A stretch of 64,000 nucleotides of DNA from Clostridiales bacterium (lineage in GTDB: Bacteria > Bacillota > Clostridia > Christensenellales > Pumilibacteraceae), in NCBI GenBank assembly GCA_022508505.1, contig JAFLVC010000001.1:186001-250000 (forward strand), in the 5' to 3' direction. The notes below the pieces were generated by a model. The model saw nothing but the letters and a program-made list of their open reading frames with translations, had not been told where the DNA came from and searched no databases. How positions within the stretch are numbered: the stretch's first letter is position 1; every line of letters begins with the position of its first letter. A program made the position numbers and the translations under genes. Below, one piece after another: positions 44,406 to 63,509 of the stretch.

Positions 44406-44417
44406 GGTAACACCTTT

Positions 44418-45887: not shown

Positions 45888-45888
45888 A

Positions 45889-47384: not shown

Positions 47385-48104
47385 ATGCTGACGATGGCGG
47401 TGGTAGACGACGAGCGCGAGCACATTGAGCGTTTCAAAGAACTCGTCGCGCGCTTTTTCGCGGACTTCCCGCGCTACGGCAGCGAATACAATGTCGTCGA
47501 GTTTTCGTCGGGCGAAAAGCTACTCGAAAACTATGCGCCGCGTTACGATGTTATTTTCCTCGATATCGATATGGACGGCATCAACGGCATGAAAACCGCC
47601 AAGCTCATTCGCAAGACGGATGAGAGCACACCGATTATATTCATAACGCGCATGGCGCGGTACGCCATAGAGGGGTATGCCGTCGCCGCATTGGATTTTA
47701 TTGTAAAGCCGTTGGATTATGCGAGCTTTTCGGTCAAAATGAAGCGCGCGTTTTCCCGCATGGCAAAGAATAAATCACAGCGCATTCAGCTCAATGTCGA
47801 AGGCGAGGTAGTCTTTGTCGACGTCAGAGATATTCTTTACGTCGAAGTCCTCAAGCACGTCGTCGTTTGGCATACAAAAAAGGGCGACTACCGCGCCTGG
47901 GGTTCTTTGAAGGACGCGGCAGAGCAGATAGAGGATCCCAATTTCTGCATGTGCAACCGTTGCTATCTCGTCAATCTTCGTCATGTTAAAGGCTTGGACA
48001 AAAATACCGTTCGCGTCGGCGATGAAGAGTTGCTTATCAGCCGCTATCGCCGAAAGGAGTTTTTGGAAACCCTTGCGCAGTACTATGGGACAGGAGGGGC
48101 GTAA
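47385..48104 (+). CDS. LytTR-family response regulator (AgrA-like)
   Basis: 239 residues from an ATG 4 nt after GGAGGA; other in-frame ATGs at 47373 and 47394 are possible. The receiver domain (~1-125) has the acidic VVDDE pocket, phospho-acceptor Asp ~60 (VIFLD) and Lys in FIVKPLD. The C-terminal LytTR DNA-binding domain (~140-235) carries the ILYVEVLKHVVVWHTKKGDY and CMCNRCYLVNLRHV patterns. Such regulators bind pairs of ~9-bp direct repeats one to two helical turns apart. The ATTCGAGTTG pairs at 49459, 55709 and 59757 fit that mode. Confidence 0.92.
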   Translation: MLTMAVVDDEREHIERFKELVARFFADFPRYGSEYNVVEFSSGEKLLENYAPRYDVIFLDIDMDGINGMKTAKLIRKTDESTPIIFITRMARYAIEGYAVAALDFIVKPLDYASFSVKMKRAFSRMAKNKSQRIQLNVEGEVVFVDVRDILYVEVLKHVVVWHTKKGDYRAWGSLKDAAEQIEDPNFCMCNRCYLVNLRHVKGLDKNTVRVGDEELLISRYRRKEFLETLAQYYGTGGA

Positions 48105-49403
48105 ATGCCGAATAACTTCTTCGGGTGGTATTTTTATGTTAAGCTGTTCCCTACGCTTATCTTCGCGACTTTGCTGCTCATAGCAAACCGCCCGAAGCGT
48201 AAGTATTTTTGGTTGCGCTTTCTTCCTACCGCCGTCGCCATGACCGTGCTTTCTACCTGGCTGTGGAGTCTTGCAAGAGGGGCATGGTATCCGGCGCTCG
48301 ACAAATACGGCGTTATTATTTGCGACGCCATTTTTCTTGCGGAGCTTTTTGCGCTCTTTTTCTTTTCGTTTATGTGTAGCCCGCTCGAAATATTTTTGTA
48401 TGTCATGGGCGGATGGGCGGCGGAGCATCTCGGCAATCAAATCGCAATGCTTCTTACCTCGGCGGCAAACATCACGGTTGATTATAAAAATTACAGTTGG
48501 CAGTATTTTCTCGTCAACGTGTTTTCATACGCGGCTGTTTACGGCGCAATCTTTGCGATATTTTACGGAATTCTCAAAAAGAATACTTCCATACAAAACA
48601 AGCGCATGCTTATCCCCGCCGGCGTCCTGCTCCTTGTCGTAACGGTATTGGCTGTTTTTATTCCGTATGACGTGTCAACGGAAGGAATGGTTGTTGTGCG
48701 TTGCTACGCCGTCGCTTGCTGTGTTATAACGCTTTTTCTTGTGTGGAGCGCATTTGAGGAGGGGCGGCTCAGTCAGGAGCTGACGCTGCTTAGCCTGCTC
48801 GACAGAAAGCGCGCCGAGCAGTACGAGATGTCCCGCGAGAGCATCGAGGTCGTCAACACGCGGTGTCACGATTTGAAAAAACTCGTCGGGCAGATTCTTG
48901 CAAACAAAAGCTCCGTCGACATGGCGGAAATAACGCAGGAGCTCGAAACGTACGACGCAATCGTCAAAACGGGCAACACCGCCTTCGATACGATTTTGAC
49001 CGAAAAGAGCTTGTACTGCGAGAAGAACGGCATTCGCTTTACCGTTATGGCGGACACCAAGCGCCTCGACTTTCTTTCGGATATCGACATTTACTCGCTT
49101 TTCGGCAACATCCTCGACAACGCGATCGAGGCTTCGCTCAAAATGGAAGAGGGCAGCCGCGCCATCGGGCTCAATGTGCGCGAAATCGGCGAAATTTGCA
49201 GCATTCACTCCGACAACCTGTTTGACGGTGCGCTGAAGTTTGCCGGCAAAAAAATAATTACGACCAAGCAAAACGCGAGCGAACACGGCTTTGGTATTAC
49301 GAGTATAAGGCGCATAGCCGAAAAGTACGGCGGCGAGATGAAGGTCTCGGCGGAGGACGGCGTGTTCAATCTCGATATCGTAATCCCCATACCTCACAAA
49401 TAA
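48105..49403 (+). CDS. sensor histidine kinase, AgrC-like (GHKL)
   Basis: 432 residues. About six hydrophobic segments lie in residues 1-~210 (for example LFPTLIFATLLLIANR and ALFFFSFMCSPLEIFLYVMG). The H-box-like NTRCHDLKKLVGQ has His ~255, and the ATPase region has NILDNAIEAS (N box ~327) and EHGFGITSIRRIAEKYGGE (G box ~400). It starts immediately after the regulator stop. The architecture is that of AgrC-type peptide-sensing kinases, but no AgrB or AgrD gene is nearby, so the signal is unknown; a sugar or oligosaccharide cue would fit the surroundings. Confidence 0.88.
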   Translation: MPNNFFGWYFYVKLFPTLIFATLLLIANRPKRKYFWLRFLPTAVAMTVLSTWLWSLARGAWYPALDKYGVIICDAIFLAELFALFFFSFMCSPLEIFLYVMGGWAAEHLGNQIAMLLTSAANITVDYKNYSWQYFLVNVFSYAAVYGAIFAIFYGILKKNTSIQNKRMLIPAGVLLLVVTVLAVFIPYDVSTEGMVVVRCYAVACCVITLFLVWSAFEEGRLSQELTLLSLLDRKRAEQYEMSRESIEVVNTRCHDLKKLVGQILANKSSVDMAEITQELETYDAIVKTGNTAFDTILTEKSLYCEKNGIRFTVMADTKRLDFLSDIDIYSLFGNILDNAIEASLKMEEGSRAIGLNVREIGEICSIHSDNLFDGALKFAGKKIITTKQNASEHGFGITSIRRIAEKYGGEMKVSAEDGVFNLDIVIPIPHK

Positions 49404-49426
49404 TCGCCACCAAAAACAGGTTTTCG

Positions 49427-49453
49427 AGCCCTCTTCGATAAGGGGGCTTTTCT
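49427..49453 (+). terminator. terminator of the LytTR operon
   Basis: Stem AGCCCTCTT/AAGGGGGCT (one T-G pair), CGAT loop, then TTTTC. Confidence 0.8.
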
Positions 49454-49458
49454 TTGCG

Positions 49459-49523
49459 ATTCGAGTTGCAAAATTCGCGATTTGCGTGAAACGGTTGACC
49501 GTAGGGTCGTTTTATTTTATAGT
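49459..49523 (+). promoter_or_regulatory. GH2-gal promoter with LytTR-type box pair (site A)
   Basis: ATTCGAGTTG (49459-49468) and a degenerate ATTTGCGTGA (49480-49489) are 21 bp start to start. Five bp later TTGACC (49495-49500), 17-bp spacer, TATAGT (49518-49523). The non-consensus -10 suits an activated promoter. Confidence 0.65.
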
Positions 49524-49561
49524 TTAGTTGTAGAAAATCGACAATCAACAGGGGAATTATT

Positions 49562-51919
49562 ATGATTAAACTCGACTTTAACGAAGGCTGGAAATGGCGG
49601 CGCCTCAACGAGGGCGATTGGAAGGAAGTCATGCTTCCGCACGACGCCATGATAGGCGAGCCGCGCAACTATGAGAGCGCGGGCGGCACCAACACCGGAA
49701 GGTTCGAGGGGCACGACTACGAGTACATAAAGACATTCACCCCGCCCGAGGAGTATAAGGATAAAGTACTCACCTTCGAATTCGAAGGTGTTTACCGCAA
49801 CGCCGAGGTCTATATCAACGGGCAAAAGGCGCTCTACCGCGCGTACGGCTACACCAATTTCTATGTGCCCGCCAACGAGTTTTTAAAGTTCGGCGAGGAA
49901 AACGAGATCAGAGTGGTCGCCGAAAACTCCAAGCAGCCCAACAGCCGCTGGTATTCGGGCGCGGGCATATACCGCCCCGTATCGCTGTTCGTCGCGGAAA
50001 AGAAGCATATTCTGATGAACGGCATCAAAGTCCGCACGACGAGCATTGACCCCGCGGTGGTCGAGGTTCGCGTCAAGACGTCGGAGCCCGGCGAGGTTGC
50101 GGTGGCGATCAGCCATGACGGCAAGATAATCGCAAACGACATAAAGAACACCGAGGACGACTGTTTTGCGGTGTTCACCTTTGAGGTGGAAAACGCAAAG
50201 CTGTGGTCGCCCGACACGCCCGAGCTTTACGAATGCGCGGCGATATTCGGGCAGGACGAGCAAATAGCGAATTTCGGCATTCGCACGCAGGACTGCACGC
50301 CTGCTGACGGCTTTACTCTAAACGGCGAACGCGTCATCATTCGCGGCGCGTGCATTCACCACGACAACGGCATTTTGGGCGCGCGCTGCTACGCCGAGGC
50401 GGAGGAGCGCAAGATAAAAATTCTCAAAGAGTACGGCTATAACGCTATACGTTCGGCGCACAACCCCTGCTCGAAAGCGCTTTTGGACGCGTGCGACCGC
50501 CTCGGCATGCTCGTCATGGACGAGTACTGCGATATGTGGTATATACACAAGACGATGTACGACTACGCCGACTACGCGCAGGAGTGGTACGAAAAAGACA
50601 TAACCGACATGATAGACAAGGACTACAACCATCCGTGCGTCATCATGTACTCGCTCGGCAACGAGGTTGCGGAAACGGCGCAGGAAAAGGGCATAGAGTT
50701 CTTCAAAAAGATGAAGGCGGTGTGCAAAAAGCACGATCCCGAGCGCCCCGTAACGACGGGCGTCAACATCTTCTTCAACCTTTTGCATTCTTGGGGTTTC
50801 GGCGTGTACAGCGACAAGAAGGCGAAGGTTAATCCGCAAAAGAAGGTGGGCAGCGAGTTCTTCAACACCATTGCGGGAATTTTCGGCGCCAAGTTCATGA
50901 AGACCATGGCAAAGCTTCACGGCTGCGACGTAAAGACGCGCGGCTGCTATGCGGCAATGGACGTCGCCGGCTACAACTACGGCATACTGCGCTACAAAAA
51001 GGACATCAAGAAATACCCCGAAAGGATTATTCTCGGCAGCGAAACCTTCTGTGCGGACGCGTACGCGTTTTGGGAATTCGCAAAAGAAAATCCTGCGCTC
51101 ATCGGCGATTTCGTGTGGGCGGGCATGGACTATCTCGGCGAGGTCGCGGTGGGCAGCTGGGAGTATAAGGAATACGCGCCCGAGCCCTCCGGCGCTTTGG
51201 GCTGGATAAGCGCGGGCAGCGGCAGAATTAACCTGATCGGAGAGCCCTTGGGCGAGGCGCTCTACACAAAAGTAGCCTTCGAGCTCGAGGATAAGCCGCA
51301 AATCGCTGTAGTTCCCGTAAACCACACAAAGGACAAACACTCCCCGTCCGCGTGGAAGTTCTCTAACGCGCTTCCCACTTGGTCGTGGAACGGCTTGAAC
51401 GGCAAGAAGGCAAAGGTGGAGGTTTACTCCCGCGCGCCGATCGTCGAGCTTCTCGTCAACGGCAAAAAGGTGGGAAAGAAAAAGTTCAAGAAGAATTGCA
51501 GGTTCAATTTCAATGTCAAATATTACGACGGCGAGGTCACGGCGATAAACCGCGACAAGCAGGGCAACGAGCTAAGCCGCAGCTCGCTCAAAACGGCCGG
51601 CGATCAAACGGTCATCACCGTCCTGCCCGAAAAGACCGAGGTAAAGAAAGGCGAGGTGTGCTTTGTGCGGCTGCGCTTCACCGACAAGGACGGCAATATA
51701 AAACCGCTTGAACACAGAGAGATTTCCGTAAACGTCGAGGGCGGCGAGCTCTTGGCGCTCGGCAACGCCTGTCCGTTCAACCTGCGCGGCTACATGGACA
51801 CCGTCACCGACACCTATTACGGCGAGGCGATGGCGGTAGTCAAGGCGGGCGAAAACGGCTTTACGCTCAAGGCGACCGACGGCAAGCTGAAAGGCGAAGC
51901 GACTGTCACAGTACAATAA
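49562..51919 (+). CDS. GH2 beta-galactosidase/glucuronidase family enzyme
   Basis: 785 residues without a signal peptide. GH2 order: sugar-binding domain (~1-155; RWYSGAGIYRPV), immunoglobulin-like domain (~160-255), TIM barrel (~256-560) with YSLGNEVAE (acid/base Glu ~368) and GSETF (nucleophile Glu ~494), then DUF4982 and Big-like beta domains to the C-terminus. Heading an operon with galK, galT and galE argues for beta-galactosidase activity that releases galactose in the cytoplasm. RBS AGGGGAA precedes the ATG. Confidence 0.93.
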   Translation: MIKLDFNEGWKWRRLNEGDWKEVMLPHDAMIGEPRNYESAGGTNTGRFEGHDYEYIKTFTPPEEYKDKVLTFEFEGVYRNAEVYINGQKALYRAYGYTNFYVPANEFLKFGEENEIRVVAENSKQPNSRWYSGAGIYRPVSLFVAEKKHILMNGIKVRTTSIDPAVVEVRVKTSEPGEVAVAISHDGKIIANDIKNTEDDCFAVFTFEVENAKLWSPDTPELYECAAIFGQDEQIANFGIRTQDCTPADGFTLNGERVIIRGACIHHDNGILGARCYAEAEERKIKILKEYGYNAIRSAHNPCSKALLDACDRLGMLVMDEYCDMWYIHKTMYDYADYAQEWYEKDITDMIDKDYNHPCVIMYSLGNEVAETAQEKGIEFFKKMKAVCKKHDPERPVTTGVNIFFNLLHSWGFGVYSDKKAKVNPQKKVGSEFFNTIAGIFGAKFMKTMAKLHGCDVKTRGCYAAMDVAGYNYGILRYKKDIKKYPERIILGSETFCADAYAFWEFAKENPALIGDFVWAGMDYLGEVAVGSWEYKEYAPEPSGALGWISAGSGRINLIGEPLGEALYTKVAFELEDKPQIAVVPVNHTKDKHSPSAWKFSNALPTWSWNGLNGKKAKVEVYSRAPIVELLVNGKKVGKKKFKKNCRFNFNVKYYDGEVTAINRDKQGNELSRSSLKTAGDQTVITVLPEKTEVKKGEVCFVRLRFTDKDGNIKPLEHREISVNVEGGELLALGNACPFNLRGYMDTVTDTYYGEAMAVVKAGENGFTLKATDGKLKGEATVTVQ

Positions 51920-51936
51920 TAATTTTCGGCACGGCT

Positions 51937-53091
51937 ATGGAAAATATCGAGTTGATATTTAAAGAGAAATTCGGGGCGAGCCCCGAAGCGATTTACTCGG
52001 CAGCGGGCAGGGTAAATCTCATCGGCGAGCACGTAGATTATTGCGGCGGCAAAGTCCTTCCGGCGGCGCTGTCGCTAAAGTGCTGCGTCGCCGCGCGGCG
52101 GAACGGAACGAATATCGTGCGCATCGCGGCGACTACGCTTGACGACTTCACCGAAATAGATTTAAAGGATACTTCGCTGTACAAGAGCTACAGGTGGGGA
52201 AGCTATCAGGCCGGAGTTGCCGACGAAATGTTGAGGGCGGGATACCGCCTTGTCGGGTGCGATATCTTGTACGACTGCACCGTTCCTTTTGGGTCGGGGC
52301 TGTCGTCGTCCGCGGCGATCGAGGTCGCGACGGCGTACGCTCTTGCAAAGCTTGGCGACAACCCCATAGATAAGGTTGAGCTCGCGGTCATCAGTCGGCG
52401 CGCCGAGAACAACTATTGCAACGTCAACTGCGGCATAATGGATCAATTTGCGTCGGCAGTCGGCAAGGCGGGATGCGCCGTGCTTCTCGACTGCGCGACG
52501 CTTGCGTACGAATACATCCCTCTCGACTTAAAAGATTGCGCGCTCGTTTTGACAAACTGCAAAAAGCCGCACAACCTTGTTTCAAGCAGCTACAACGACA
52601 GGCGGGGCGAGGTGCATACGGCTTTAGAGGTAGTGAAGCAAAAGTTCGACGTGGAAAACCTCGCGGAAGTTACGCCGCCTATGCTGGATGAATGCCGCGC
52701 GCTTATGCCGCCCGTCATATACCGCCGCGCAAAGCATGTCGTTACCGAGTGCGAGCGCGTAAGAAGGAGCGTGGAGGTTTTAAAGAGCGGCGATTTGGAG
52801 AGCTTCGGCAAAATACTTAACGAGTCGCATATTTCCCTCCGCGACGACTACGAGGTGACGGGCGTCGAGCTCGACACCCTCGCCGAAGAGGCGTGGAAAC
52901 GCCCCGAATGTCTCGGCTCCCGCATGACGGGCGCGGGTTTCGGCGGCTGTACTGTAAGCCTCGTTAAAAGGTCGGGGATCGAACAATTCATTTCGAACGT
53001 AGGCGAAAACTATAAGAATAAAACAGGCTACAATGCGGATTTCTATGTCGCGGAGATTGCCGACGGCATAATAGACGAGGGCACGGTATGA
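51937..53091 (+). CDS. galK: galactokinase
   Basis: 384 residues, GHMP kinase fold. GRVNLIGEHVDYCGG (~23-37) is the galactokinase signature, VPFGSGLSSSAAIEVA the ATP-binding loop (~112-127), CGIMDQFAS the catalytic Asp region, and MTGAGFGGCTVSLV motif III (~330). It phosphorylates galactose to galactose 1-phosphate, 17 nt after the GH2 gene and overlapping galT by 4 nt (ATGA). Confidence 0.96.
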   Translation: MENIELIFKEKFGASPEAIYSAAGRVNLIGEHVDYCGGKVLPAALSLKCCVAARRNGTNIVRIAATTLDDFTEIDLKDTSLYKSYRWGSYQAGVADEMLRAGYRLVGCDILYDCTVPFGSGLSSSAAIEVATAYALAKLGDNPIDKVELAVISRRAENNYCNVNCGIMDQFASAVGKAGCAVLLDCATLAYEYIPLDLKDCALVLTNCKKPHNLVSSSYNDRRGEVHTALEVVKQKFDVENLAEVTPPMLDECRALMPPVIYRRAKHVVTECERVRRSVEVLKSGDLESFGKILNESHISLRDDYEVTGVELDTLAEEAWKRPECLGSRMTGAGFGGCTVSLVKRSGIEQFISNVGENYKNKTGYNADFYVAEIADGIIDEGTV

Positions 53092-54566
53092 CAATAAACG
53101 CTTATATAGAACAGCTTATTGCTTATGCGCAAAAGTATTTGCTACTATCCCGTCGGGACATTACCTATACGCGCAACCGTCTTTTCGATATTCTCGGAGT
53201 GGAATCTAATGAGCAAGGAGATTTCGACGAGATCCCCGAGCTTCCCGACAGCATCTTGCAGGGCATTTTCGCTTGCCTCGAACAAGAAGGGAAAGCTTTT
53301 GACAAAGCGACCTTGGGTGAAAAGCTTATGGATGCGGTCATGCTCCGCCCGAGCGAATATGAGACTATTTTTTGGGAGGAGTCGGAAGCGTTTCCCGTCG
53401 ACGCCACCGACTGGGCGTACGACTACGCCGTGCATTCCGACTATGTCAAAAAGAGCGCAATAGACAAGAATTTGAAATGGCTTGCCGAAACCGGACTGGA
53501 AATCACGATAAACCTTTCTAAGCCCGAAAAGAACAACAAAGATTTGCAAAAGCAGCTCGACGTCAAGAGCACGAGCTATCCGCTTTGTGCGATCTGCCGC
53601 GACAACGAGGGTTTTGAGCGGCCGGGCTTTTCCCGTCGCAATATGCGCACTATTTCGTTGGAGCTTGCGGGAGAGCCTTGGTTTTGGCAGTACTCGCCGT
53701 ATGCGTATTTCAACGAGCACGGAATAGCGGTTTCATGCGAGCATACTCCCATGAAGCTGGACGAAAAGACGGCGGTTCGGCTGTTCGATTTTGTCGACAG
53801 ATTTCCGCACTACTTTATCGGCAACAACGCGCCGCTACCGCGAGTGGGCGGCTCGATACTGATGCACGATCACTTTCAGGGCGGTCGCTACATCCTTCCC
53901 ATGCAGAAGGTAGGCTACCGCACGCTGCTTAAAAGCAAAAAATATCCCGATGTAAAGGCGGGGATTTTGGATTGGCACAACACCGCGCTGCGGCTCGAGG
54001 GAAAAAGAGACGAGGTCGCCGCCCTCGCATACAAAATCGCGGAGGCTTGGAGAAAGTACGAAAATGCGGAGCTCGACATTTTGCCGTTCACGGGCGAGAC
54101 GCCGCACTCCACGGCGAGCTTTATCGCGCGCAAAACGGATGAGCGCTACATTCTCGATATCATTCTCAGAAACAACCGCCAAAGCGAGGAGCACCCCGAC
54201 GGCATATTCCACGCGCACAGGGAATACCATCACATAAAGAGCGAGTCCATCGGGCTCATCGAGGCGATGGGGCTTTTTATACTTCCGGCAAGGCTTAAAC
54301 GCCAGCTTTTTACGGTCAAGCGCATTTTGGCGGGGGAAAAGGTCGAGCTCGCGGAAGATATGCTCATGTTCAAGCCGATGATTGAAAGGCTTCAAAAAGA
54401 GCACGGAGTCGTATCCGCTCATGATGCGGAAACGATCGTGAAGTGCGAGGTGGAAAACACCTGCCGCAGTATTCTCGAAAACACGGCGGTGTTCAAGGGC
54501 GACAAGGAAGGGCAGTCGGCGCTTGTAAAATTCCTGTCGTCGGTCGGACTTAAAACGGAGAGGTAA
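53088..54566 (+). CDS. galT: galactose-1-phosphate uridylyltransferase, GalT2 class
   Basis: 492 residues, the length of the Firmicute GalT2 class rather than the ~350-residue histidine-triad GalT. CAICRDNEGFERPGFSRRNMRTI, PWFWQYSPYAYFNEHGI and the catalytic-region LPRVGGSILMHDHFQGG are typical. It exchanges UMP between UDP-glucose and galactose 1-phosphate. It overlaps galK and is followed by galE after 4 nt. Confidence 0.94.
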   Translation: MTINAYIEQLIAYAQKYLLLSRRDITYTRNRLFDILGVESNEQGDFDEIPELPDSILQGIFACLEQEGKAFDKATLGEKLMDAVMLRPSEYETIFWEESEAFPVDATDWAYDYAVHSDYVKKSAIDKNLKWLAETGLEITINLSKPEKNNKDLQKQLDVKSTSYPLCAICRDNEGFERPGFSRRNMRTISLELAGEPWFWQYSPYAYFNEHGIAVSCEHTPMKLDEKTAVRLFDFVDRFPHYFIGNNAPLPRVGGSILMHDHFQGGRYILPMQKVGYRTLLKSKKYPDVKAGILDWHNTALRLEGKRDEVAALAYKIAEAWRKYENAELDILPFTGETPHSTASFIARKTDERYILDIILRNNRQSEEHPDGIFHAHREYHHIKSESIGLIEAMGLFILPARLKRQLFTVKRILAGEKVELAEDMLMFKPMIERLQKEHGVVSAHDAETIVKCEVENTCRSILENTAVFKGDKEGQSALVKFLSSVGLKTER

Positions 54567-54570
54567 AAAT

Positions 54571-55587
54571 ATGACGATTTTGGTAACGGGCGGCGCGGGC
54601 TATATCGGTTCTCATACCGTAGTCGAGTTATTAAACGCAGGGCATGAAGTCGCAGTAATCGACAATCTTGTAAATTCAAGCCCCAAGGCAGTCGAGCGTG
54701 TGGAAAAAATCACGGGGAAGAAAATTGCTTTTTACGAAAACGATGTGCGCGACCGCGCGGCATTGGAAAAGGTCTTTACCGCACATAAAATAGATTGGGT
54801 TATTCACTTCGCGGGACTTAAGGCGGTGGGCGAGAGCGTGGCGAAGCCGCTCGAATATTACGACAACAACATAGGCTCCACGCTCGTTCTTCTCGAAACG
54901 ATGAAGAAGTTCGGCGTGAAGAAGATTGTATTCTCGTCTTCCGCTACCGTGTACGGCGCGTCCGAAAAGCTCCCGCTCGACGAAACCTGCCGGACGGGCG
55001 GTACTACAAATCCTTACGGCACGTCCAAATATATGCAGGAGCTTATCCTGCGCGATCTGTACACTGCCGACAACGAGTGGACGGTCGTGCTCCTTCGCTA
55101 CTTCAACCCCGTGGGCGCGCATGCGAGCGGGCTAATCGGCGAAGACCCGAAGGGCATTCCCAACAATCTCACGCCGTATATAGCAAAGGTCGCTATCGGC
55201 GAGCTCAAAGAAATCGGCGTGTTCGGAAATGATTATCCCACTCACGACGGCACGGGCGTAAGAGACTACATTCATGTAGTCGATCTTGCAAAGGGGCATG
55301 TGGCGGCGGTCCATGCGCTCGATAAGGCTGGCGTGTATACCTATAATCTCGGCACGGGAATCGGTTACAGCGTAATGGACGTCATTCACGCCTTTGAAAA
55401 GGCTTGCGGAAAGAAGCTTCCGTATTCCGTAAAGCCGCGCCGCGCGGGGGACATAGCGGCTTGCTACGCAAACGCCGATAAAGCCAAGGCGGAGCTTCAT
55501 TGGGAAGCTGAGCTCGGAATCGACGACATGTGCTCGTCGCTTTGGAATTGGCAGACAAAGAATCCGACAGGCTATCGCGATGTTTGA
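54571..55587 (+). CDS. galE: UDP-glucose 4-epimerase
   Basis: 338 residues. GGAGYIGSHT (~7-16) binds NAD; SSSATVYG and NPYGTSKYMQE (Tyr/Lys catalytic pair ~147/151) and LLRYFNPVGAHASG are GalE-specific. It completes the Leloir pathway by regenerating UDP-glucose from UDP-galactose, and can also supply UDP-galactose to surface polymers. A terminator follows at 55674. Confidence 0.96.
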   Translation: MTILVTGGAGYIGSHTVVELLNAGHEVAVIDNLVNSSPKAVERVEKITGKKIAFYENDVRDRAALEKVFTAHKIDWVIHFAGLKAVGESVAKPLEYYDNNIGSTLVLLETMKKFGVKKIVFSSSATVYGASEKLPLDETCRTGGTTNPYGTSKYMQELILRDLYTADNEWTVVLLRYFNPVGAHASGLIGEDPKGIPNNLTPYIAKVAIGELKEIGVFGNDYPTHDGTGVRDYIHVVDLAKGHVAAVHALDKAGVYTYNLGTGIGYSVMDVIHAFEKACGKKLPYSVKPRRAGDIAACYANADKAKAELHWEAELGIDDMCSSLWNWQTKNPTGYRDV

Positions 55588-55673
55588 TATGTATATGTAA
55601 AGGCGGACGCAAGATGCCGCAAACGCTTGCGCCAATGCGGCGCTACCAAGATAATTTGCACTTTTCCGGAATT

Positions 55674-55703
55674 GCTCTGCGGATTGTACGCAGGGCTTTT
55701 TTT
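55674..55703 (+). terminator. terminator of the GH2-galKTE operon
   Basis: Stem GCTCTGCG/CGCAGGGC (one T-G pair), 7-nt loop, then seven Ts. Confidence 0.85.
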
Positions 55704-55708
55704 ATGCT

Positions 55709-55774
55709 ATTCGAGTTGATAAAAACGCTATTCGGGTTAGGCGTATTGACGGGAATAATAATGAAAAGTATAAT
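55709..55774 (+). promoter_or_regulatory. promoter with LytTR-type box pair (site B)
   Basis: ATTCGAGTTG (55709-55718) and ATTCGGGTTA (55730-55739), 21 bp start to start, 6 bp before TTGACG (55746-55751); 17-bp spacer; TATAAT (55769-55774). It drives the lipoprotein-GH78 unit. Confidence 0.8.
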
Positions 55775-55819
55775 CGACTCAGCTTAAAAGGGCAAAATTT
55801 TTTAATAGGAGAAAAGGAT

Positions 55820-57268
55820 ATGAAACTCAAAAAACTCGTTGCGGGCGTAGTTACCGCATGCACGGCACTCACTCTCACCGCAGGCCTTGTCGCGTGCGGC
55901 GGCGGGGACGATCCCGAAAAGAAAGATCCCAAACCCACGCCTCCTGCCGAAGCGACAATCAGCTATCAGTTCACCGGCGCCAACGATGAGCTGTACGGCT
56001 ATGGCTGGGCGTATTACACAATGCTCAATCTCTGGAGCGACGGCACGGTAAGCGGCAGCGGCTACAACTACCTCAAACAGCAGGGCGGGCTCAGGGAGAA
56101 GTGGTTCCGCGGCACCTGGTCGGAGAAGAATGACGAAGATGCAGGCAAGATTGTTTCGCTTAAAGCGATCTGGGACGAGGATGCAACCAATGAACAGAAC
56201 GGCGAGTCAACCGCCGGCAGAATAGAAAACTACACTCTCTATTTTGACGATGACGGCACGACGCTCACTCCTTTCACGCTCAAGATTCCGCTCATGAGCT
56301 TCCGCGATGCGGAAATGACCTGCCACGTCCCTGCGCTCTACAAGACCATGGACGAGTTTGTTGCGGGCGCTAAAAAATACGGCGAAGAGCACAAGCCGGG
56401 CGCCGGCGAGGAAGATAATTACGGCAATGCGCTTGCAACTCTTACTGCCGAGGACGGCAAGACCGCCGTTTTCTACGACAGCAACGTCGTTGTGATTGAC
56501 GCCGGATACACCAAGCCCGTTTTGGGATGGGAATACAAGGACGGCGCGTATGTTTTCACCGAGACGGACGGAAACAACAAAGGCCAGGTTACACAAGCCG
56601 CCGCGCTCACGGTAGAAGGCACGACGGGCACGCTTACCTATGATTTCATGGGATATGCGACATACACCTACACAGGCGACGTTTCCAAGCTCCTCGGCGA
56701 AGAGGAAGAGGAGCCTACCGCGCTCGCAACGCTTTCTACGGAAGACGGCAAGACGGTAGTTTTCTATGACGACGGCAAAGTCAAGGTCGATACGGGCATT
56801 CCGCAGCTCAGCCCCGTATGGAACTGGAAGTATGAAAACGGCGAGATAACCCTCACCGAAGAGGGCAAGGATACCGCCCCCGGCGGCGTGACGGTCTCTC
56901 TTGAAGGAAAGACGCTCACGCTCGTTTACGCCCCCTCGTTCCTTCAGGGACAGAGCTTCACTTACACGGGCGACGTTTCCGCAATTGTCCCTGCGCAAGC
57001 GATTGCAACGCTTTCTACGGAAGACGGCAAGGACGCAGTTTTCTATGACGACGGCACCGTTAAAGTAAACGCAGGATTTTTAAACCCCGTATGGAATTGG
57101 AAGTATGAGGACGGCACGATTACCTTCACCGAGGAGGGCAAGGACACCGTACCCGGCGGCGTGACATTCACGCTCGAAGGTACGACGGGCACGCTCGTTT
57201 ACGCTCCTTCGTTCCTTCAGGGACAGAGCTTCACCTACACGGGCGACGTTTCCAAGCTTATCGCGTAA
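55820..57268 (+). CDS. secreted lipoprotein with three ~90-residue repeats
   Basis: 482 residues. Lipobox GLVAC (Cys ~23). Residues ~40-200 form one lipocalin-like or beta-rich domain with alternating aromatic residues. Residues ~204-482 are three tandem repeats, each opening AxATLxxEDGKxxVFYD and closing with FTYTGDVSK/A. Repeats 2 and 3 share PVWNWKYE, GGVT and LVYAPSFLQGQS. No enzyme motif is seen; a surface glycan- or ligand-binding role is inference. It is the first gene after a LytTR-type promoter and precedes the GH78 gene by 16 nt. Confidence 0.8.
   Translation: MKLKKLVAGVVTACTALTLTAGLVACGGGDDPEKKDPKPTPPAEATISYQFTGANDELYGYGWAYYTMLNLWSDGTVSGSGYNYLKQQGGLREKWFRGTWSEKNDEDAGKIVSLKAIWDEDATNEQNGESTAGRIENYTLYFDDDGTTLTPFTLKIPLMSFRDAEMTCHVPALYKTMDEFVAGAKKYGEEHKPGAGEEDNYGNALATLTAEDGKTAVFYDSNVVVIDAGYTKPVLGWEYKDGAYVFTETDGNNKGQVTQAAALTVEGTTGTLTYDFMGYATYTYTGDVSKLLGEEEEEPTALATLSTEDGKTVVFYDDGKVKVDTGIPQLSPVWNWKYENGEITLTEEGKDTAPGGVTVSLEGKTLTLVYAPSFLQGQSFTYTGDVSAIVPAQAIATLSTEDGKDAVFYDDGTVKVNAGFLNPVWNWKYEDGTITFTEEGKDTVPGGVTFTLEGTTGTLVYAPSFLQGQSFTYTGDVSKLIA
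56429..57265 (+). repeat. three in-frame coding repeats
   Basis: Units start at 56429, 56720 and 56999 (about 270-290 bp). The second and third are closest, also at DNA level. Confidence 0.85.
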
Positions 57269-57284
57269 TTTATCGGAGTAAACG

Positions 57285-59681
57285 ATGAAAAAGTTTGTTA
57301 AAAAGGGCGCGGTTGCGCTCGCTCTTGCCGCGGCGCTTTCGGTCGGCGGCGTGCTCGCAGGCTGCGGCGATCCCGACAAGAAGTCCGATCCCAAGCCCAA
57401 GCCCGATCCCGGCCCCGCTCTCGAGTACGTCGACAAGAGCGAAACTCCGTATGTGAGCTCGCTCGACGGCTACAAGAAGACGGATTGGACGGCAAAGTGG
57501 ATTTGGCAGGCGAGTAGCGGCGCAAACACCTACGCCGCATTCCGCAAGACGTTCACGCTGTCCTCAAAGCCCGAGAAAGCAATAGCGTCTATTGCGGCGG
57601 AGAGCAAGTATTGGCTGTGGGTTAACGAGGAGCTCGTCGTCTATGACGGCGGTCCCAAGCGCGGCCCTACGCCGTACGACACGTATTACGAAAACGTCGA
57701 CCTTTCCGAGTATTTGAAGCAGGGCGAAAACCTTATAGTCGCGCTCGTCGCATACAACGGAAGGAGCGGAAACTCGAGCGTAGACCCCGGTCAGGCAGGG
57801 TTCCTGTTCGAAATGAACGCAGGCGGCACAAAGGTTGTTTCGGACTCTTCCTTCAAGGTCATGCGCCTCAGAGAGTACCGCAACCAAGGTCTTTTGACCT
57901 CGAAGTGGCCCAACTATCCGCAGGCGTCCATGCTCGCGGAGTGGAACGTCTATTACGACGCCAACTACTCCGTCGGCGAATACACAAAGATAAGCTACGA
58001 CGATTCCGAGTGGGCCAACGCCACCGAGGTCGGCGTAGTGGGTGCGATGCCCTTTAACGACACCTATCTGTCGCCCACGCCGCTCATTAAGTTTGACAAG
58101 GACTACGTCGATTTAAGCAGCGAGTACATCGGGCAGAAGCTTACCAAGGATACGAAGATCACAGTCGATCTTCCCGACAGGCAGAACATTCAGTTCAGCC
58201 CGTACTTCGAGCTCACCGCGGACAGCAAGGATCTTCGCATCACGTACTATACCAACACCTATACGACGCAAAACCTCAACTCGTTCAAGGACGATTACGT
58301 ATGCGCCGAGGGCAAGCAGACGTACGAGCAGTATCCTTGGCGTTCGGGCTCGCAGCTCATAATCGAAGCGCCCGCGGGCGTAACCTTCGACCGCATTGCA
58401 ATCCGCGTGAGCGGCTACAATTCGGAGCGCGTGGGTAGCTTTGTCAGCGATAACGAAGACCTCAACACGCTGTGGCAGAAGGCTGTGAACACGCTCTTAA
58501 TCTGCATGCGCGATACGTATATGGACTGCCCCGAGCGCGAGCGTTCCTCTTATCTCGGCGACAGCTCCAACCAGATAGGCGAGACATTCTACAGCCTCGA
58601 CGAAAATTCGTACGCGATGACAAAGAAGCTCATGCTCACTTCGCTCGGCTGGACCAAGACAAACAACGAGATTCCGCTGCGCTCACCGAGCATGACGACC
58701 AACGAGAACCCCGGTCAGACGCTGTCCTTCCTCGCCTCCGTTTGGGAGTACTACCTTTACACTGGCGACGCGGAAACGGTCAGAATGTTCTATCCGCTCG
58801 CGGTCAACTATCTCAAACTGTGGAGTTTGAATGCTGACGGTAGCATTCAGGTGCGTAACGGCTCCTTCAACTGGGTAGACTGGGGCTCCGGCTACGACAC
58901 GACGGTTTTGCAAAACGCTTTCTACTACTACGCACTTTCGAGCATCGACAAGCTCGCAAACGCGCTTGACATTTCTACCGATTCGGCGTTCTTTACCGAG
59001 CGCTTGCAGAAGGTCAAAGCGGGCTTTGCCAAGTTCAAAAAGGACGGCGGCTACACTTCCGGAACCAAGTACGACGACAGGGCAAACGCCATGGCGGTTG
59101 TCGCAGGTCTTGCCGACCTTACGGATAAGGCGGAATATGACGGCATTCTCAACGTGCTCAAAACGGTCAAGGGCGCAAGCCCCTACATGGAAAAGTACGT
59201 CTTGGAAGCGCTTGCGCAGATGGGCGAGTACGACGCCTGCTTGGAGCGCATGCTCGACCGCTACGACGCCATGATAAAAGACGTCGACAGCACGCTTTGG
59301 GAGGTGTGGAGCAAGACGCCCGTGGACGGCACAATGAACCACGGCTGGTCGGGCGGTCCGCTTACGGTATTGAGCAAGTACTTCGGCGGTATCGTTCCCA
59401 CCGCAAAGGGCTACGACAGCTACGAAATCACCATCGGCAGCGCGTTCTACGAGCTTGAGATGAACGTGCGCACGCCCAAGGGCGATATTTCGTACGAGCT
59501 TTCGATTGAGGGCGGCGCCGCTTCATTGAAGCTTACCGCCGTCGCAAACGGAGTACTTCGCATTCCGCTCTCCATGGGCGCCGCAACGATTTCGGGTGCG
59601 TCCTCCGAAAAGCTGGCGGACGAAAACGGCTACGCTTGCTACAAGCTTGCGGGCGGAAATTACACTGTTACAATCGCATAG
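57285..59681 (+). CDS. GH78-like alpha-L-rhamnosidase lipoprotein
   Basis: 798 residues. Lipobox VLAGC (Cys ~27), then a Pro/Asp/Lys linker. N-terminal beta domains (~55-300; AKWIWQA...AFRKTF, SKYWLWVNEELV) and an (alpha/alpha)6 barrel (~385-700) with CPERERSSYLGDSSNQ (~415-430), equivalent to the DCPxRxE region of GH78, and MNHGWSGGP (~685). A C-terminal beta domain ends it. It probably removes rhamnose or a related deoxy sugar from plant or microbial glycans at the cell surface. The catalytic Glu was not assigned individually, so the activity is a family inference. Confidence 0.82.
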   Translation: MKKFVKKGAVALALAAALSVGGVLAGCGDPDKKSDPKPKPDPGPALEYVDKSETPYVSSLDGYKKTDWTAKWIWQASSGANTYAAFRKTFTLSSKPEKAIASIAAESKYWLWVNEELVVYDGGPKRGPTPYDTYYENVDLSEYLKQGENLIVALVAYNGRSGNSSVDPGQAGFLFEMNAGGTKVVSDSSFKVMRLREYRNQGLLTSKWPNYPQASMLAEWNVYYDANYSVGEYTKISYDDSEWANATEVGVVGAMPFNDTYLSPTPLIKFDKDYVDLSSEYIGQKLTKDTKITVDLPDRQNIQFSPYFELTADSKDLRITYYTNTYTTQNLNSFKDDYVCAEGKQTYEQYPWRSGSQLIIEAPAGVTFDRIAIRVSGYNSERVGSFVSDNEDLNTLWQKAVNTLLICMRDTYMDCPERERSSYLGDSSNQIGETFYSLDENSYAMTKKLMLTSLGWTKTNNEIPLRSPSMTTNENPGQTLSFLASVWEYYLYTGDAETVRMFYPLAVNYLKLWSLNADGSIQVRNGSFNWVDWGSGYDTTVLQNAFYYYALSSIDKLANALDISTDSAFFTERLQKVKAGFAKFKKDGGYTSGTKYDDRANAMAVVAGLADLTDKAEYDGILNVLKTVKGASPYMEKYVLEALAQMGEYDACLERMLDRYDAMIKDVDSTLWEVWSKTPVDGTMNHGWSGGPLTVLSKYFGGIVPTAKGYDSYEITIGSAFYELEMNVRTPKGDISYELSIEGGAASLKLTAVANGVLRIPLSMGAATISGASSEKLADENGYACYKLAGGNYTVTIA

Positions 59682-59709
59682 TTTTCATTTCTTTATCTCC
59701 TCCTATTGT

Positions 59710-59745
59710 ATTGCCCCGAAGTGCGCCTTCGGGGCAATGTTTTTT
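59710..59745 (+). terminator. terminator after GH78
   Basis: A 12-bp stem ATTGCCCCGAAG/CTTCGGGGCAAT, loop TGCGC, then GTTTTTTT. Confidence 0.92.
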
Positions 59746-59756
59746 TATGTAATGCT

Positions 59757-59821
59757 ATTCGAGTTGATAAAAACGCCATTCGAGTTGACGTTATTGACTT
59801 ACATTATTAAAGGTTTATAAT
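59757..59821 (+). promoter_or_regulatory. promoter with LytTR-type box pair (site C)
   Basis: Two exact copies of ATTCGAGTTG (59757-59766, 59778-59787), 21 bp start to start, 6 bp before TTGACT (59794-59799); 16-bp spacer; TATAAT (59816-59821). It drives the lipoprotein-GH3-membrane protein unit. Confidence 0.82.
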
Positions 59822-59865: not shown

Positions 59866-60507
59866 ATGAAGAAACTCCACAAGATCCTTGTCGCTGTATT
59901 TATGGCGGCACTCGTAGCGGTAATTGCCTTGTTCGCAGTAGGCTGCGGCGAAACCACCACGGCAAAATCCGCAAAGCTCACCGGCGTTTATAACTCCGAC
60001 AAGAAAATCGTTTACCAGAACTTCCAACCCACCTACAACTACTACTACTTCATTATCTCCCAGCAAATGATCGAAACATACGACGACGGTACATACTGCC
60101 TTACCGTGACGGCTGTCATGTACAGCAACGTTAAGTTCGGTCCCGACGTTCCCGCAAACGAGTATACTGCCAACGAGCAGGGCACGTTGAATGTAAAGTA
60201 CTACGGCAAGTGCAAAGAGACCGATAAGACGGCAGACGACACCACGCTCGTTCTTTCTAAGCCCACCCGCATAGTGTCTTCCAAGAAGGGCAGCACCTAC
60301 ATCGATACCGACAGATGGACCGCAGCTATGGCAGATACGACAAGACCCACCGATCCTTCGACCGGCGAAAAGGGCGACGCGCTTACCAAGGCGGAATATC
60401 TCGAAGCTCAACTCAAAGCGTGGGAAGAGGGCGACCTCGAAATCTATACCATTCTCACCACTGCTACCTTCGAGGCAGTCAGCGCGTTGATTGTAAGCTA
60501 CATGTAA
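59866..60507 (+). CDS. small secreted lipoprotein, unknown function
   Basis: 213 residues. Signal peptide with lipobox AVGC (Cys ~27). The mature part is hydrophilic, Thr/Lys/Tyr-rich, with a YYYFIISQQMIETYDDGTY strand pattern resembling the beta-rich domain of the lipoprotein at 55820. No family is recognised. It is the first gene under a LytTR-type promoter and lies 14 nt before the GH3 gene, so it may be an accessory or binding protein for it. Confidence 0.72.
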   Translation: MKKLHKILVAVFMAALVAVIALFAVGCGETTTAKSAKLTGVYNSDKKIVYQNFQPTYNYYYFIISQQMIETYDDGTYCLTVTAVMYSNVKFGPDVPANEYTANEQGTLNVKYYGKCKETDKTADDTTLVLSKPTRIVSSKKGSTYIDTDRWTAAMADTTRPTDPSTGEKGDALTKAEYLEAQLKAWEEGDLEIYTILTTATFEAVSALIVSYM

Positions 60508-60521
60508 TAGGAGTGTAGTCC

Positions 60522-63509
60522 ATGGAAAAGCTGAAAAAATTCAGCCAAAAAACGGTGAAGATCTGGCGCGGACTCACGCTGATTATCGCACTGTTTTTGG
60601 CGCTGTTCCTCGTGCTTACCGACATGGGCGAGCGCTACGAGGGATTCATCAACGACGCGCTCGGCACCATCGCTCCGCCCGTTAAAGGCGACGGCGAGAT
60701 AAAGTATAAGAGCCGCTTCGGCGAGCTCAATGCCGAGAATTCCAAAAAGCTGATAAAGACCGAAAACGAGTTCAACATTCAGGCTATGGAAGAGGGCGCG
60801 GTTATGCTCCGCAACGAGAACGGCGCGCTTCCTCTGAAGGCGGACGAAATGAGCGTCACGCTCTTCGGTACCAGCGTTGCCCAACCCGTATATGCCACCA
60901 ACGGCGGCGGAGCGAACTTTAAGTCGTCGCGCGGCGGCAGCCTGTACGACGCTTTCAAGGCGGCGGGCTTCAAAATCAACGATACGATGTTTAACGCTTA
61001 TAAAAACAGCGACGTCAGGCGCAAGTCGGTCGCTACAAGCGAGGCGAGTATCGGCGAAGTTCCGAGCAGTTTCTACACCAACACGCTCAAGAACAGCTAC
61101 GCAAGCAACTACAACGACGCTGCAATCGTCATGTTCACCCGCTACGGCGGCGAGGGCGTCGATTTGCAGACCAAGGACGCAGACGGCGTGCCCATGCTTT
61201 CCTTCCATAAGAACGAGCGCGATTTGATGAAGATGATTGCCGATTCCGATAAGTTCGGCAAGATCATCGTCCTTGTGAACAGCCCGTTCCCTATGGACAT
61301 CGAGTGGATAGAGGACCCGCAGTACAAGGTTGACGCGTGCCTCGCTTTCGGCGCGGCGGGCGACACCGGATTTATCGGAATCGCGAACCTGCTTACGGGC
61401 AAGGCCGATCCCTCCGGTCACCTCGTCGACTCTTATGCGACGGACAGCATGTCTGCTCCCGCAATGCGCAACTTCGGCAACTTTACGTACACCAACCACA
61501 ACACGCAGTTCCAGCGCAACTATGTAATCTATGCAGAAGGCATCTATGTCGGCTACAAGTACTACGAGACGCGCTATCAAGATCAGGTGCTCGGCGTCAA
61601 CAACGCGGCAGGCTCCGCCGGCGTATACGCGAGCAAGAACCAGGAGTCCTGGAACTACGCAGACGAAATGGCGTACACGTTCGGCTACGGTCTCTCGTAT
61701 GCAAACTTCACGCAAGAAGTGCAAAGCATCGTTTGGGACCGCACCGCACACACCGTAACGGCGACCGTCAAGGTCACCAACAACGGCGATCCCACGCACG
61801 CCTACACGGGTAAGTCCAAGTCGGTCGTGCAGCTCTATGCACAGGCGCCGTGGCAAAAGGGACAGGCGGAAAAGTCGGCTATACAGCTGATCGGCTTCGG
61901 CAAGACCAAGCTTTTGGGCAAGGGTGAAGACGAAACCCTCACCGTCGTTGCCGACGATTACCTGTTCGCCACCTACGACGAGAAGGCGACCAACGGCGCT
62001 GACACGACGAAAAAGGGCTGCTACGTGTTTGACGCAGGCGACTACTACTTCGCAATCGGCGCGGACGCTCACGACGCGCTCAACAACGTGCTCGCAAAGA
62101 CGCATCCCGACGCTTCGCTCATCGACGAAAAGGGTAACTCCGTCAAGGGCGACGCCGCCAAGGTGTCCGACGCAGTCAACCTCGCCGAGCTCGACAACAA
62201 GACGTACGCCAAGTCACCCGCGACGGGCGAGGTCGTTTGCAATGTGTTGCAGGAAATCAACTACAACCACTATGTGGACGGCGCTATCACTTACCTCACG
62301 CGCGGCGATTGGAATACCTACCCCGAGTCGTACACCGGCCTCACGGCTACGGAACAGCTCAAAACCGACCTTGCGGGCAAGACCTACAAGAAAGGCGACG
62401 AGAAGACGAGCGACTTCAAGGTAAGCAAGAACAGCGACATCAAGTTCGCCGACCTTGCGGATGTCGACTATGACGACGACGCGACCTGGGAGAAGTTCCT
62501 CGACCAGCTTTCCGTTTCCGAGCTCGCAACCATCTGCGGCGAGAAAATGGGTAACGACGCCATCACGTCGGTCGGCAAGCCTTACAACAACAACACCGAC
62601 GGACCTAAGGGTCTCGGCAGCAACTACATGAGAGGCGACGGCAGCGGCATTACGCTGTATGTCGACGAGGTCGTCATGGCAAGCACCTTCAATCTCGAGC
62701 TTCTCGAGGAGCGCGGCGCACTGTTCGCCGAGGACGCGCTCTACGCCCATTATCAGATGATATTCGGACCGGGCGCGGACTGGCACAGAACGGCGTACTC
62801 GGGCAGAAACTCGGAGTACTATTCCGAAGATCCCAATATGTCCTTCCTTTGCGGCGCGGCCCAGTGCAGTGCGATGCAAAAGGGCGGCTTGATTGCGGGC
62901 ATCAAACACTTTGCCGGCAACGATCAGGAAACCAACCGTCACGGCGTTGCGACGTTTGCAACCGAGCAGGCTTTCCGTGAAAGCTCGCTCCGCTGCTTCG
63001 AAGGCGCGCTTCGTGACGACAAGGGCGGCGCTCTCGGCGTCATGACCTGCTTCAACCGCATAGGCGCGACGGCAGGCGCAGGCTCGTATCCCGTGCAGGT
63101 TCAGATCCTGCGCAACGAGTGGGGCTTCAAGGGCGTCAACATCACCGACTCGTCTAGGGACGCTTCCGACTATGTCCACACCGAAGAGTGCATCACCGGC
63201 GGCACGGATATGTTCAACAACGACACTTCGCGCACGCAGGCGCTCATAACACTCGTTCGTCAGAAGAAGGACGGCACCATTCAGAAGGCGATGAGGACGG
63301 CCAACAAGCACTACTACTATGCGTTCAGCCGCTCCAACCTCATCAACGGCCTTGCGCACGACACGGTTGTCGAGGACTTCGTGCCTTGGTGGAAGACCGC
63401 ATTGAATGTGTTCGTAGGCGTGTTTGCGGGACTCACGGCGGTTTTGGGTGTACTGTATGTCGGCACGCTTGTAATCGACGAAATCAGAAAACGGGGTGAA
63501 GCGAAATGA
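60522..63509 (+). CDS. membrane-anchored GH3 glycosidase with permuted domain order
   Basis: 995 residues. An N-terminal membrane segment (~15-40; LTLIIALFLALFLVLT) and a C-terminal one (~955-985; VFVGVFAGLTAVLGVLYVGTLV) bracket the enzyme. The order is inverted relative to most GH3: the alpha/beta sandwich comes first (~65-330; EEGAVMLRNENGALPL; acid/base candidate Glu ~211 in YGGEGVDL), then an Fn3-type region (~390-520), then the barrel (~650-930) with IKHFAGNDQETNRH and nucleophile candidate Asp ~876 in NITDSSRD. This order is known from some Ruminococcus and Butyrivibrio beta-glucosidases. It overlaps the next gene (ATGA). Confidence 0.92.
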   Translation: MEKLKKFSQKTVKIWRGLTLIIALFLALFLVLTDMGERYEGFINDALGTIAPPVKGDGEIKYKSRFGELNAENSKKLIKTENEFNIQAMEEGAVMLRNENGALPLKADEMSVTLFGTSVAQPVYATNGGGANFKSSRGGSLYDAFKAAGFKINDTMFNAYKNSDVRRKSVATSEASIGEVPSSFYTNTLKNSYASNYNDAAIVMFTRYGGEGVDLQTKDADGVPMLSFHKNERDLMKMIADSDKFGKIIVLVNSPFPMDIEWIEDPQYKVDACLAFGAAGDTGFIGIANLLTGKADPSGHLVDSYATDSMSAPAMRNFGNFTYTNHNTQFQRNYVIYAEGIYVGYKYYETRYQDQVLGVNNAAGSAGVYASKNQESWNYADEMAYTFGYGLSYANFTQEVQSIVWDRTAHTVTATVKVTNNGDPTHAYTGKSKSVVQLYAQAPWQKGQAEKSAIQLIGFGKTKLLGKGEDETLTVVADDYLFATYDEKATNGADTTKKGCYVFDAGDYYFAIGADAHDALNNVLAKTHPDASLIDEKGNSVKGDAAKVSDAVNLAELDNKTYAKSPATGEVVCNVLQEINYNHYVDGAITYLTRGDWNTYPESYTGLTATEQLKTDLAGKTYKKGDEKTSDFKVSKNSDIKFADLADVDYDDDATWEKFLDQLSVSELATICGEKMGNDAITSVGKPYNNNTDGPKGLGSNYMRGDGSGITLYVDEVVMASTFNLELLEERGALFAEDALYAHYQMIFGPGADWHRTAYSGRNSEYYSEDPNMSFLCGAAQCSAMQKGGLIAGIKHFAGNDQETNRHGVATFATEQAFRESSLRCFEGALRDDKGGALGVMTCFNRIGATAGAGSYPVQVQILRNEWGFKGVNITDSSRDASDYVHTEECITGGTDMFNNDTSRTQALITLVRQKKDGTIQKAMRTANKHYYYAFSRSNLINGLAHDTVVEDFVPWWKTALNVFVGVFAGLTAVLGVLYVGTLVIDEIRKRGEAK

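Follow-up and report, generated by a model that had tools for sequence, protein, structure and literature searches.

A LytTR two-component system and a candidate local regulon of three glycan-use operons in a Clostridiales bacterium

In uncultured Clostridia, most of the regulators that govern glycan use have yet to be assigned. A 64,000-nucleotide stretch of contig JAFLVC010000001.1 from a Clostridiales bacterium (assembly GCA_022508505.1), referred to below as the window, contains a LytTR response regulator and a GHKL sensor kinase followed by three operons for sugar degradation, and raised the question of whether this pair controls its neighbors. We analyzed the window within its own genome (G000, 1.89 Mb) and across a set of 20 genomes of the genus, G000 among them. 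From the arrangement of promoters and genes, it is very likely that the GHKL/LytTR pair activates a local glycan-use regulon of three operons through paired candidate operators. The box pairs, their rarity, their position at promoters, their conservation, and their co-occurrence with one regulator clade are all observed.

The box ATTCGAGTTG, reported by the first-pass annotation, was exact at 49459, 55709, 59757, and 59778; the copy at 55730 had 2 mismatches, and the second copy of promoter 1, at 49480, was ATTTGCGTGA, with 6 of the 10 letters kept. The start-to-start distance was 21 bp in all three pairs, and the second copy ended 5, 6, and 6 bp before the -35 elements at 49495, 55746, and 59794. 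Direct reading thus bore out the claimed arrangement at three promoters, together with the degenerate copy at 49480 and the exact pair at 59757/59778. For single copies of the box the window showed no enrichment: with up to 2 mismatches allowed, there were 47 where 67 were expected. It is thus the pairs that carry the case. As given in Tables 2 and 3 of PMC6193735, LytTR targets consist of two 9-bp repeats with a 12-bp spacer (11 to 13 bp) lying 4–11 bp from the -35 element. The window pairs, with 9-bp units, 12 bp between them, and 9, 10, and 10 bp to the -35 element, fit this geometry, as the annotation had proposed. The paired 9-bp repeats and the 12-bp spacer stood, but the reported 10-mer was shifted by 3 bp; the functional unit, with the core GC-N-ATTCG, probably begins 3 bp ahead of it.

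For genome searches we used a degenerate pair, two copies of GC-N-ATTYG-N-GT 21 bp apart, derived from six sites in G000 and its relative G007. It was used instead of an earlier pattern, ATTCGAGTTG-N11-ATTCGAGTTG, which at up to 3 mismatches missed promoter 1 and gave an extra match on C22, inside a 4557-aa open reading frame (ORF). With up to 2 mismatches allowed, the degenerate pair matched G000 three times, each time exactly and at one of the three promoters, and a check for box pairs scattered over the genome therefore found 3 of 3 where the annotation had placed them; the reversed control pattern gave four matches at the same tolerance. Across the 20 genus genomes there were six exact matches, three in G000 and three in G007, of which only the absence of any further exact match is independent, since the pattern was made from these six sites. 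There were three one-mismatch matches, and those in G012 and G016 lay upstream of a 49% relative of the window GH3 (glycoside hydrolase family 3) gene.

The kinase gene begins at the base right after the end of the regulator gene, as an adjoining cognate GHKL partner. The phospho-acceptor D60 in the motif FLDIDM was invariant across four aligned regulators, and ComE (4cbv) was the best solved-structure match covering both regulator domains. With its receiver domain and adjoining kinase, the regulator differs from the LytTR regulatory system (LRS) type of PMC6193735, which has a membrane inhibitor and neither receiver nor kinase, and its LytTR output domain sets it apart from the AraC/YesMN type.

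Matches to the regulator were present in all 20 genus genomes, but a close orthologue (81% identity) besides G000 occurred only in G007, and the next-best matches, in G012 and G016, were at 47–48%. G007 has the same order of regulator, kinase, and GH2 as the window, with a pair before GH2. At the end of this contig (L044:1-411), the second box pair and the beginning of lipoprotein A come immediately after GH2, galKTE being absent from that place, and another G007 contig goes on with lipoprotein A and GH78, then the third pair, then the lipoprotein B and GH3 genes. The relative that keeps the LytTR gene thus has all three box-bearing promoters. Between G000 and G007, 58 of 66 box columns (88%) were identical versus 278 of 467 other intergenic columns (60%), so that in the comparison of orthologous promoters suggested by the annotation the boxes were better kept than the remaining intergenic DNA. 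A weak extra pair (18.3 bits, 21 bp) was also seen at L044:5101 (+), between the G007 regulator and a divergent relative of the window GH43 gene, and is possibly a further target of the regulator in G007.

Promoters 2 and 3 share a nearly identical 30 bp within each of G000 and G007, as would be expected if the repeats belonged to a duplicated promoter cassette and had no regulatory meaning. However, the flanks of the GH2 promoter differ while its spacing is the same, conservation is centered on the boxes, and more distant relatives have related pairs; a mere cassette is therefore extremely improbable. GH2 had eight matches in seven genomes, of which seven were inspected for boxes and the eighth (L226, G016) begins at a contig end. 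No box was found upstream of five of the seven inspected copies (G006, 89%; G012, 75%; G016, 73%; G008, 75%; G018, 57%); the remaining two, those of G000 and G007, carry the pair. The genomes G006, G008, and G018 have no close regulator orthologue, and the GH2 copies of G012 and G016 sit elsewhere than their 47–48% regulators. Upstream of GH2 in G012 and G016 (L222/L223), inspection by eye showed a conserved stretch oriented against the GH2 gene; in the reading of the other strand it opens with GCTATTCACG, and a looser repeat follows some 21 bp later.

Loci were gathered around related LytTR regulators: 58 genus loci, the window included, with L045 and L055 chosen for their boxes, and a sample from named genomes comprising the best 80 of 490 such loci. 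A tree was built of 120 LytTR regulators drawn from these loci, and in it the window regulator fell in a supported set of seven (100/98, from a bootstrap that had not settled), consisting of the window, G007, G016, and G012 regulators, two from L063, and one from L118. ATTCG-type pairs with 21-bp spacing were present in the loci, six in number, of all seven members. The pairs of the window, G007, and G012 scored 31–42 bits, and in the loci of the more distant members (42–52% regulator identity) the pairs were related and for the most part weaker. At spacing 21 there were 25 pairs scoring 16 bits or more overall and 2 bits or more in each half, a count that includes duplicates of one place and some loci chosen for matching, versus 0, 1, 0, and 3 at spacings 19, 20, 22, and 23. 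These results supported the view that box type follows regulator clade, weakly scored in the distant members.

The relation between clade and box type bears on two other candidates for the protein that binds the boxes. AraC-type proteins can use direct half-sites about 21 bp apart beside the -35 element, so an AraC-family or other non-LytTR activator might occupy these sites. AraC and LacI regulators are common at such targets; the table of PMC5320581 gives one or both for 12 of 14 loci from Roseburia and Eubacterium rectale. Nevertheless, the box type tracks the LytTR clade, and no HTH_18 AraC domain, the only regulator model searched for this alternative, was found in the genome, whereas 9 of 14 control genomes were positive; a non-LytTR activator is a highly improbable explanation. 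The second candidate is another LytTR regulator. The annotation was right that the regulator is the only LytTR gene in view, in the sense that the window holds just one, but the genome holds six, and one of the five located elsewhere could be the protein that binds. Against this, the C19 system has a different pair, GCCATTTACGG/ACCACTTATGG, with the operators of the remaining four not found; the 81% orthologue and exact boxes go together among the searched genomes; and distant members of the window regulator's clade have the same core in their loci. We gave very little credence to binding by another LytTR protein.

The favored mechanism is control by the window pair itself. A signal, presumably derived from a glycan, would cause the kinase to phosphorylate the LytTR regulator, which would then bind as a dimer to two GC-N-ATTCG direct repeats 9–10 bp upstream of the -35 element. 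The bound regulator would act on RNA polymerase at the GH2 (with the Leloir genes), lipoprotein-GH78, and lipoprotein-GH3 operons, probably by activation rather than repression. ComE and AgrA activate by contact with polymerase at the -35 element, and by analogy the window regulator may do the same.

By sequence comparison, the window pair is one of a large paralogous LytTR/GHKL family, part of which has its own 21-bp repeat after the kinase. Regulator relatives scoring at least 115 bits numbered 18 in G012 and 23 in G016 (loci L142–L181), both genomes of about 2 Mb, and there were none in 12 of the 20 genus genomes, which is a large expansion of LytTR regulators in part of the genus. When the 350 bp after the kinase stop codon was searched in 89 loci for pairs of 12-mers, with a -10 element required, pairs of at least 10/12 at 21 bp were found in 10 loci, none of them the window system, versus 3 altogether at 18 other spacings. 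At 9/12 there were 22 of 89 loci at 21 bp, near-identical relatives included, and 0–5 at each other spacing. Among named-genome loci, 9 of 48 had a pair of at least 10/12 at spacing 21 after the kinase, with 0–4 at other spacings. Blautia schinkii (L139) and Borkfalkia faecavium (L080) had perfect repeat 12-mers that differed from each other. The C19 pair of G000, located after its kinase, likewise had 21-bp spacing; G007 had a similar one, and in G006 the C19 group had a similar pair with one base fewer between the units. Box and protein similarity were correlated over all pairs of 28 systems in a Mantel test (r 0.46; 0/5000 permutations), falling to r 0.14 (113/5000) without pairs whose DNA-binding parts were at least 60% identical and to 0.18 (39/5000) without those at least 50% identical; as the test ignores relatedness and base composition, it was given little weight.

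Several observations weigh against regulation of the three operons by the window pair or against its extension to relatives. The five further LytTR genes of the genome are one. When up to 2 mismatches were allowed, matches to the reversed control equaled or outnumbered those to the true pattern in most genomes, and since it gave 0 to 10 matches per genus genome, inexact matches by themselves mean little; the third one-mismatch match was in G014, a genome without a strong relative of the regulator, and is probably due to chance. The GH2 promoter pair of the proposed GH2-galKTE target was kept in G007, but galKTE were absent from the corresponding place and so lie outside the conserved set there. 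Promoter 2 or 3 may have been copied from the other. The distant clade members scored weakly: 15.4–16.1 bits in L063, 15.6 in L118, where spacing 19 at the same place scored 15.1, and 10.7 in L048 (G016), which is below the listing threshold of the pair scan. A 23.3-bit ATTCG-type pair near 6059 of L083, from a Gemmiger metagenome-assembled genome, has spacing 20 instead of 21.

The wider family adds points of the same kind. Of 960 promoter-like sites in genus loci, 17 had a pair of at least 9/10 at spacing 21, versus 0–2 at each of 15 other spacings, but 4 of the 17 belonged to the window system or its G007 orthologue. Promoter sites of the named genomes showed no excess at spacing 21 (4/983; other spacings 0–4), and 20 control regions had 2 of 398 sites at 21, one a simple repeat, with 0–2 at other spacings. 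About three quarters of the 89 stretches downstream of kinases were without a clear pair. Among 11 paralogue groups inspected by eye, L151/L154 had a weak pair and L148/L150 a pair at spacing 20, and no pair was seen in the C6 group (five genomes), in L180/L181, or in several others. Autoregulation was considered and rejected, as pairs upstream of regulators showed no enrichment (6/115 at 21 versus 0–9 at other spacings). Pairs upstream of the regulators in L063 and L144 look real by eye.

Across the family, the LytTR/GHKL pair often had a GH3 as its neighbor. Gene neighbors were counted for 41 genus and 51 named-genome regulators with a recognized kinase, 29 of 121 being left out as having none. 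A GH3 related to that of the window by BLAST lay at most two genes downstream of the regulator in 22/41 and 28/51 cases, and between four genes before and three genes after it in 31/41 and 38/51. In eight genomes, 62 regulator matches scored 115 bits or more, and 54 of these had such a GH3 within 10 kb, where at most 17.3 were expected; conversely, 68 of 103 GH3 entries had a regulator within 10 kb among the matches listed, in a list that omits short conventional GH3s and second pieces. Regulator and GH3 counts rose together over 12 genomes (Spearman 0.99, four genomes having none of either). The window GH3 has both GH3 domains, with Asp876 as its nucleophile, and shares its C-before-N domain order with the solved structures 5wug and 5k6l. 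The nucleophile Asp was kept in all 99 distinct GH3s of 900–1250 aa, whereas the Trp that follows it in two solved relatives was kept in 8 and lost in 91 of the 99, and the missing Trp suggests an altered substrate pocket. Hydrophobic segments were present at both ends in 87 of 99 GH3s of LytTR loci. A bolder but rather doubtful proposal is that the doubly membrane-anchored GH3 is a part of the sensor, so that GH3, GHKL kinase, LytTR regulator, and a private 21-bp operator would form a module that senses a single glycan linkage through its cleavage on the cell surface; G012 and G016, with about 20 modules, might then hold an array of linkage detectors replacing much AraC/LacI control.

The features of the system are listed in Table 1. 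Pfam bore out the gene assignments of the annotation for GH2-galK-galT-galE, lipoprotein-GH78, lipoprotein-GH3, and the LytTR regulator, except for the two lipoprotein genes, which match no Pfam family; lipoprotein A has a signal segment and a lipobox. In the lipoprotein-GH78 operon both genes were as named, but the GH78 is by its lipobox also a lipoprotein. The predicted structure of lipoprotein B was beta-rich at low confidence, with a mean predicted local distance difference test score (pLDDT) of 46. Judging from gene content, GH2 with the Leloir genes and the surface GH78 and GH3 would fit a galactose- and rhamnose-bearing plant glycan.

Table 1. Regulator, candidate operators, promoters, and target genes in the window
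Feature	Position	Strand	Basis
LytTR response regulator, receiver and LytTR domain, 239 aa	47385..48104	+	Pfam PF00072 and PF04397, both over cut-off
GHKL sensor histidine kinase, 432 aa, about 5-6 membrane segments	48105..49403	+	PF14501; hydropathy (five segments)
Box pair 1, GCGATTCGA-N12-GCGATTTGC, 9 bp before -35	49456..49485	+	LytTR register; orthologous pair in G007
Promoter of GH2-galKTE, TTGACC-17-TATAGT	49495..49523	+	Sequence
GH2, beta-galactosidase type, no predicted membrane segment	49562..51919	+	Pfam; NCBIfam GalB below cut-off; hydropathy
Galactokinase, galK	51937..53091	+	Pfam
Galactose-1-phosphate uridylyltransferase, galT	53088..54566	+	Pfam, NCBIfam
NAD-dependent sugar epimerase, galE-like	54571..55587	+	Pfam
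Box pair 2, GCTATTCGA-N12-GCTATTCGG, 10 bp before -35	55706..55735	+	LytTR register
Promoter of lipoprotein A-GH78, TTGACG-17-TATAAT	55746..55774	+	Sequence
Lipoprotein A, 482 aa, internal repeats	55820..57268	+	Signal segment and lipobox; no Pfam match
GH78 alpha-L-rhamnosidase-type lipoprotein	57285..59681	+	PF17389; lipobox
Box pair 3, GCTATTCGA-N12-GCCATTCGA, 10 bp before -35	59754..59783	+	LytTR register
Promoter of lipoprotein B-GH3, TTGACT-16-TATAAT	59794..59821	+	Sequence
Lipoprotein B, 213 aa, adjoins GH3 across clade	59866..60507	+	Sequence; no Pfam match
GH3, domain order C then N, with membrane segments close to residues 11 and 959	60522..63509	+	PF00933 and PF01915

Adjoining the regulator is a divergent pentose-use cluster at 42969-47211 (-), encoding xylose isomerase, GH43, and an FGGY sugar kinase; on the strand of these genes, none of the window's five top-scoring box pairs lay before them. 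Farther away, 36866-39616 (+) encodes a protein of the alpha-amylase type that also has Listeria-Bacteroides repeats and a pullulanase-associated domain, and an ORF of 990 aa at 5587-8559 (-) matches Pfam only in an AhpC/TSA (thioredoxin-like) domain close to its N terminus.

The combination of a LytTR regulator with a GHKL kinase is the layout of AgrC/AgrA, and AgrA/ComE-type systems use GHKL kinases, as the window system does. Their regulators, like that of the window, join a receiver to a LytTR domain, and their targets have the form also seen at the window promoters, two 9-bp repeats 12 bp apart just upstream of the -35 element. An Agr-like peptide quorum-sensing system that controls glycan genes only incidentally would account for this layout, and the window regulator matches the NCBIfam AgrA model, at 43 bits, far under the cut-off of 400. 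The genomes G000, G007, G012, and G016 contained no AgrB over the cut-off (G007 had one sub-cut-off fragment), and no control genome exceeded it either. GH3 genes adjoin related LytTR/GHKL pairs in many genomes, which also argues against incidental control, and a quorum-sensing system of this kind is unlikely here. The window system further differs from AgrA/ComE in its targets, which are glycosidase and galactose operons, and in its core, GC-N-ATTCG, where the tables of PMC6193735 give repeats of the ACC[AG]CTTA type.

The targets of the Escherichia coli systems BtsSR and YpdAB are not known to include glycosidase operons. Their kinases are of the LytS type, whereas the window kinase is GHKL. 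Both are described in PMC5552118 as LytS/LytTR systems responding to pyruvate. The role proposed here, which the first-pass annotation called less usual for LytTR, is so in that a glycan regulon is readable from promoters, but control of carbon use as such was already known from these two systems. For the rumen bacterium Butyrivibrio proteoclasticus it was noted in 2010 that each of the three LytTR regulators has nearby a secreted GH3 carrying a membrane helix at its C terminus (PMC2914790). What is described there is an adjacency in one genome, whereas the link seen here extends over many genomes and comes with candidate operators, a conserved local regulon, and a GH3 with two membrane segments. 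The Roseburia gram-positive polysaccharide utilization locus (gpPUL) Ros-7, as listed in the accessible part of PMC5320581, includes a LytTR response regulator within a Firmicutes glycan locus, but it also lists AraC, and that part gives no binding sites, whereas the window has candidate operators. An Akkermansia LytTR regulator mentioned in PMC5945754 has no receiver and is not relevant to the window system. Among the papers listed in searches of an open-licence collection, no title or abstract opening described operators or a regulon for LytTR-glycosidase systems. As far as these searches go, a glycan regulon legible from the operators of a LytTR pair has not been described before, the link between LytTR and GH3 having been noted once, in 2010.

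This gut-type bacterium appears, from its promoters and gene order, to use a LytTR pair to switch on three neighboring operons for sugar degradation. With the operator legible from the sequence, testable regulons can be read from DNA alone. Paralogues with differing boxes offer natural material on how LytTR proteins choose their DNA, and the repeated association with a GH3 anchored in the membrane hints at a way of sensing that differs from the usual schemes of AraC, LacI, and quorum sensing.

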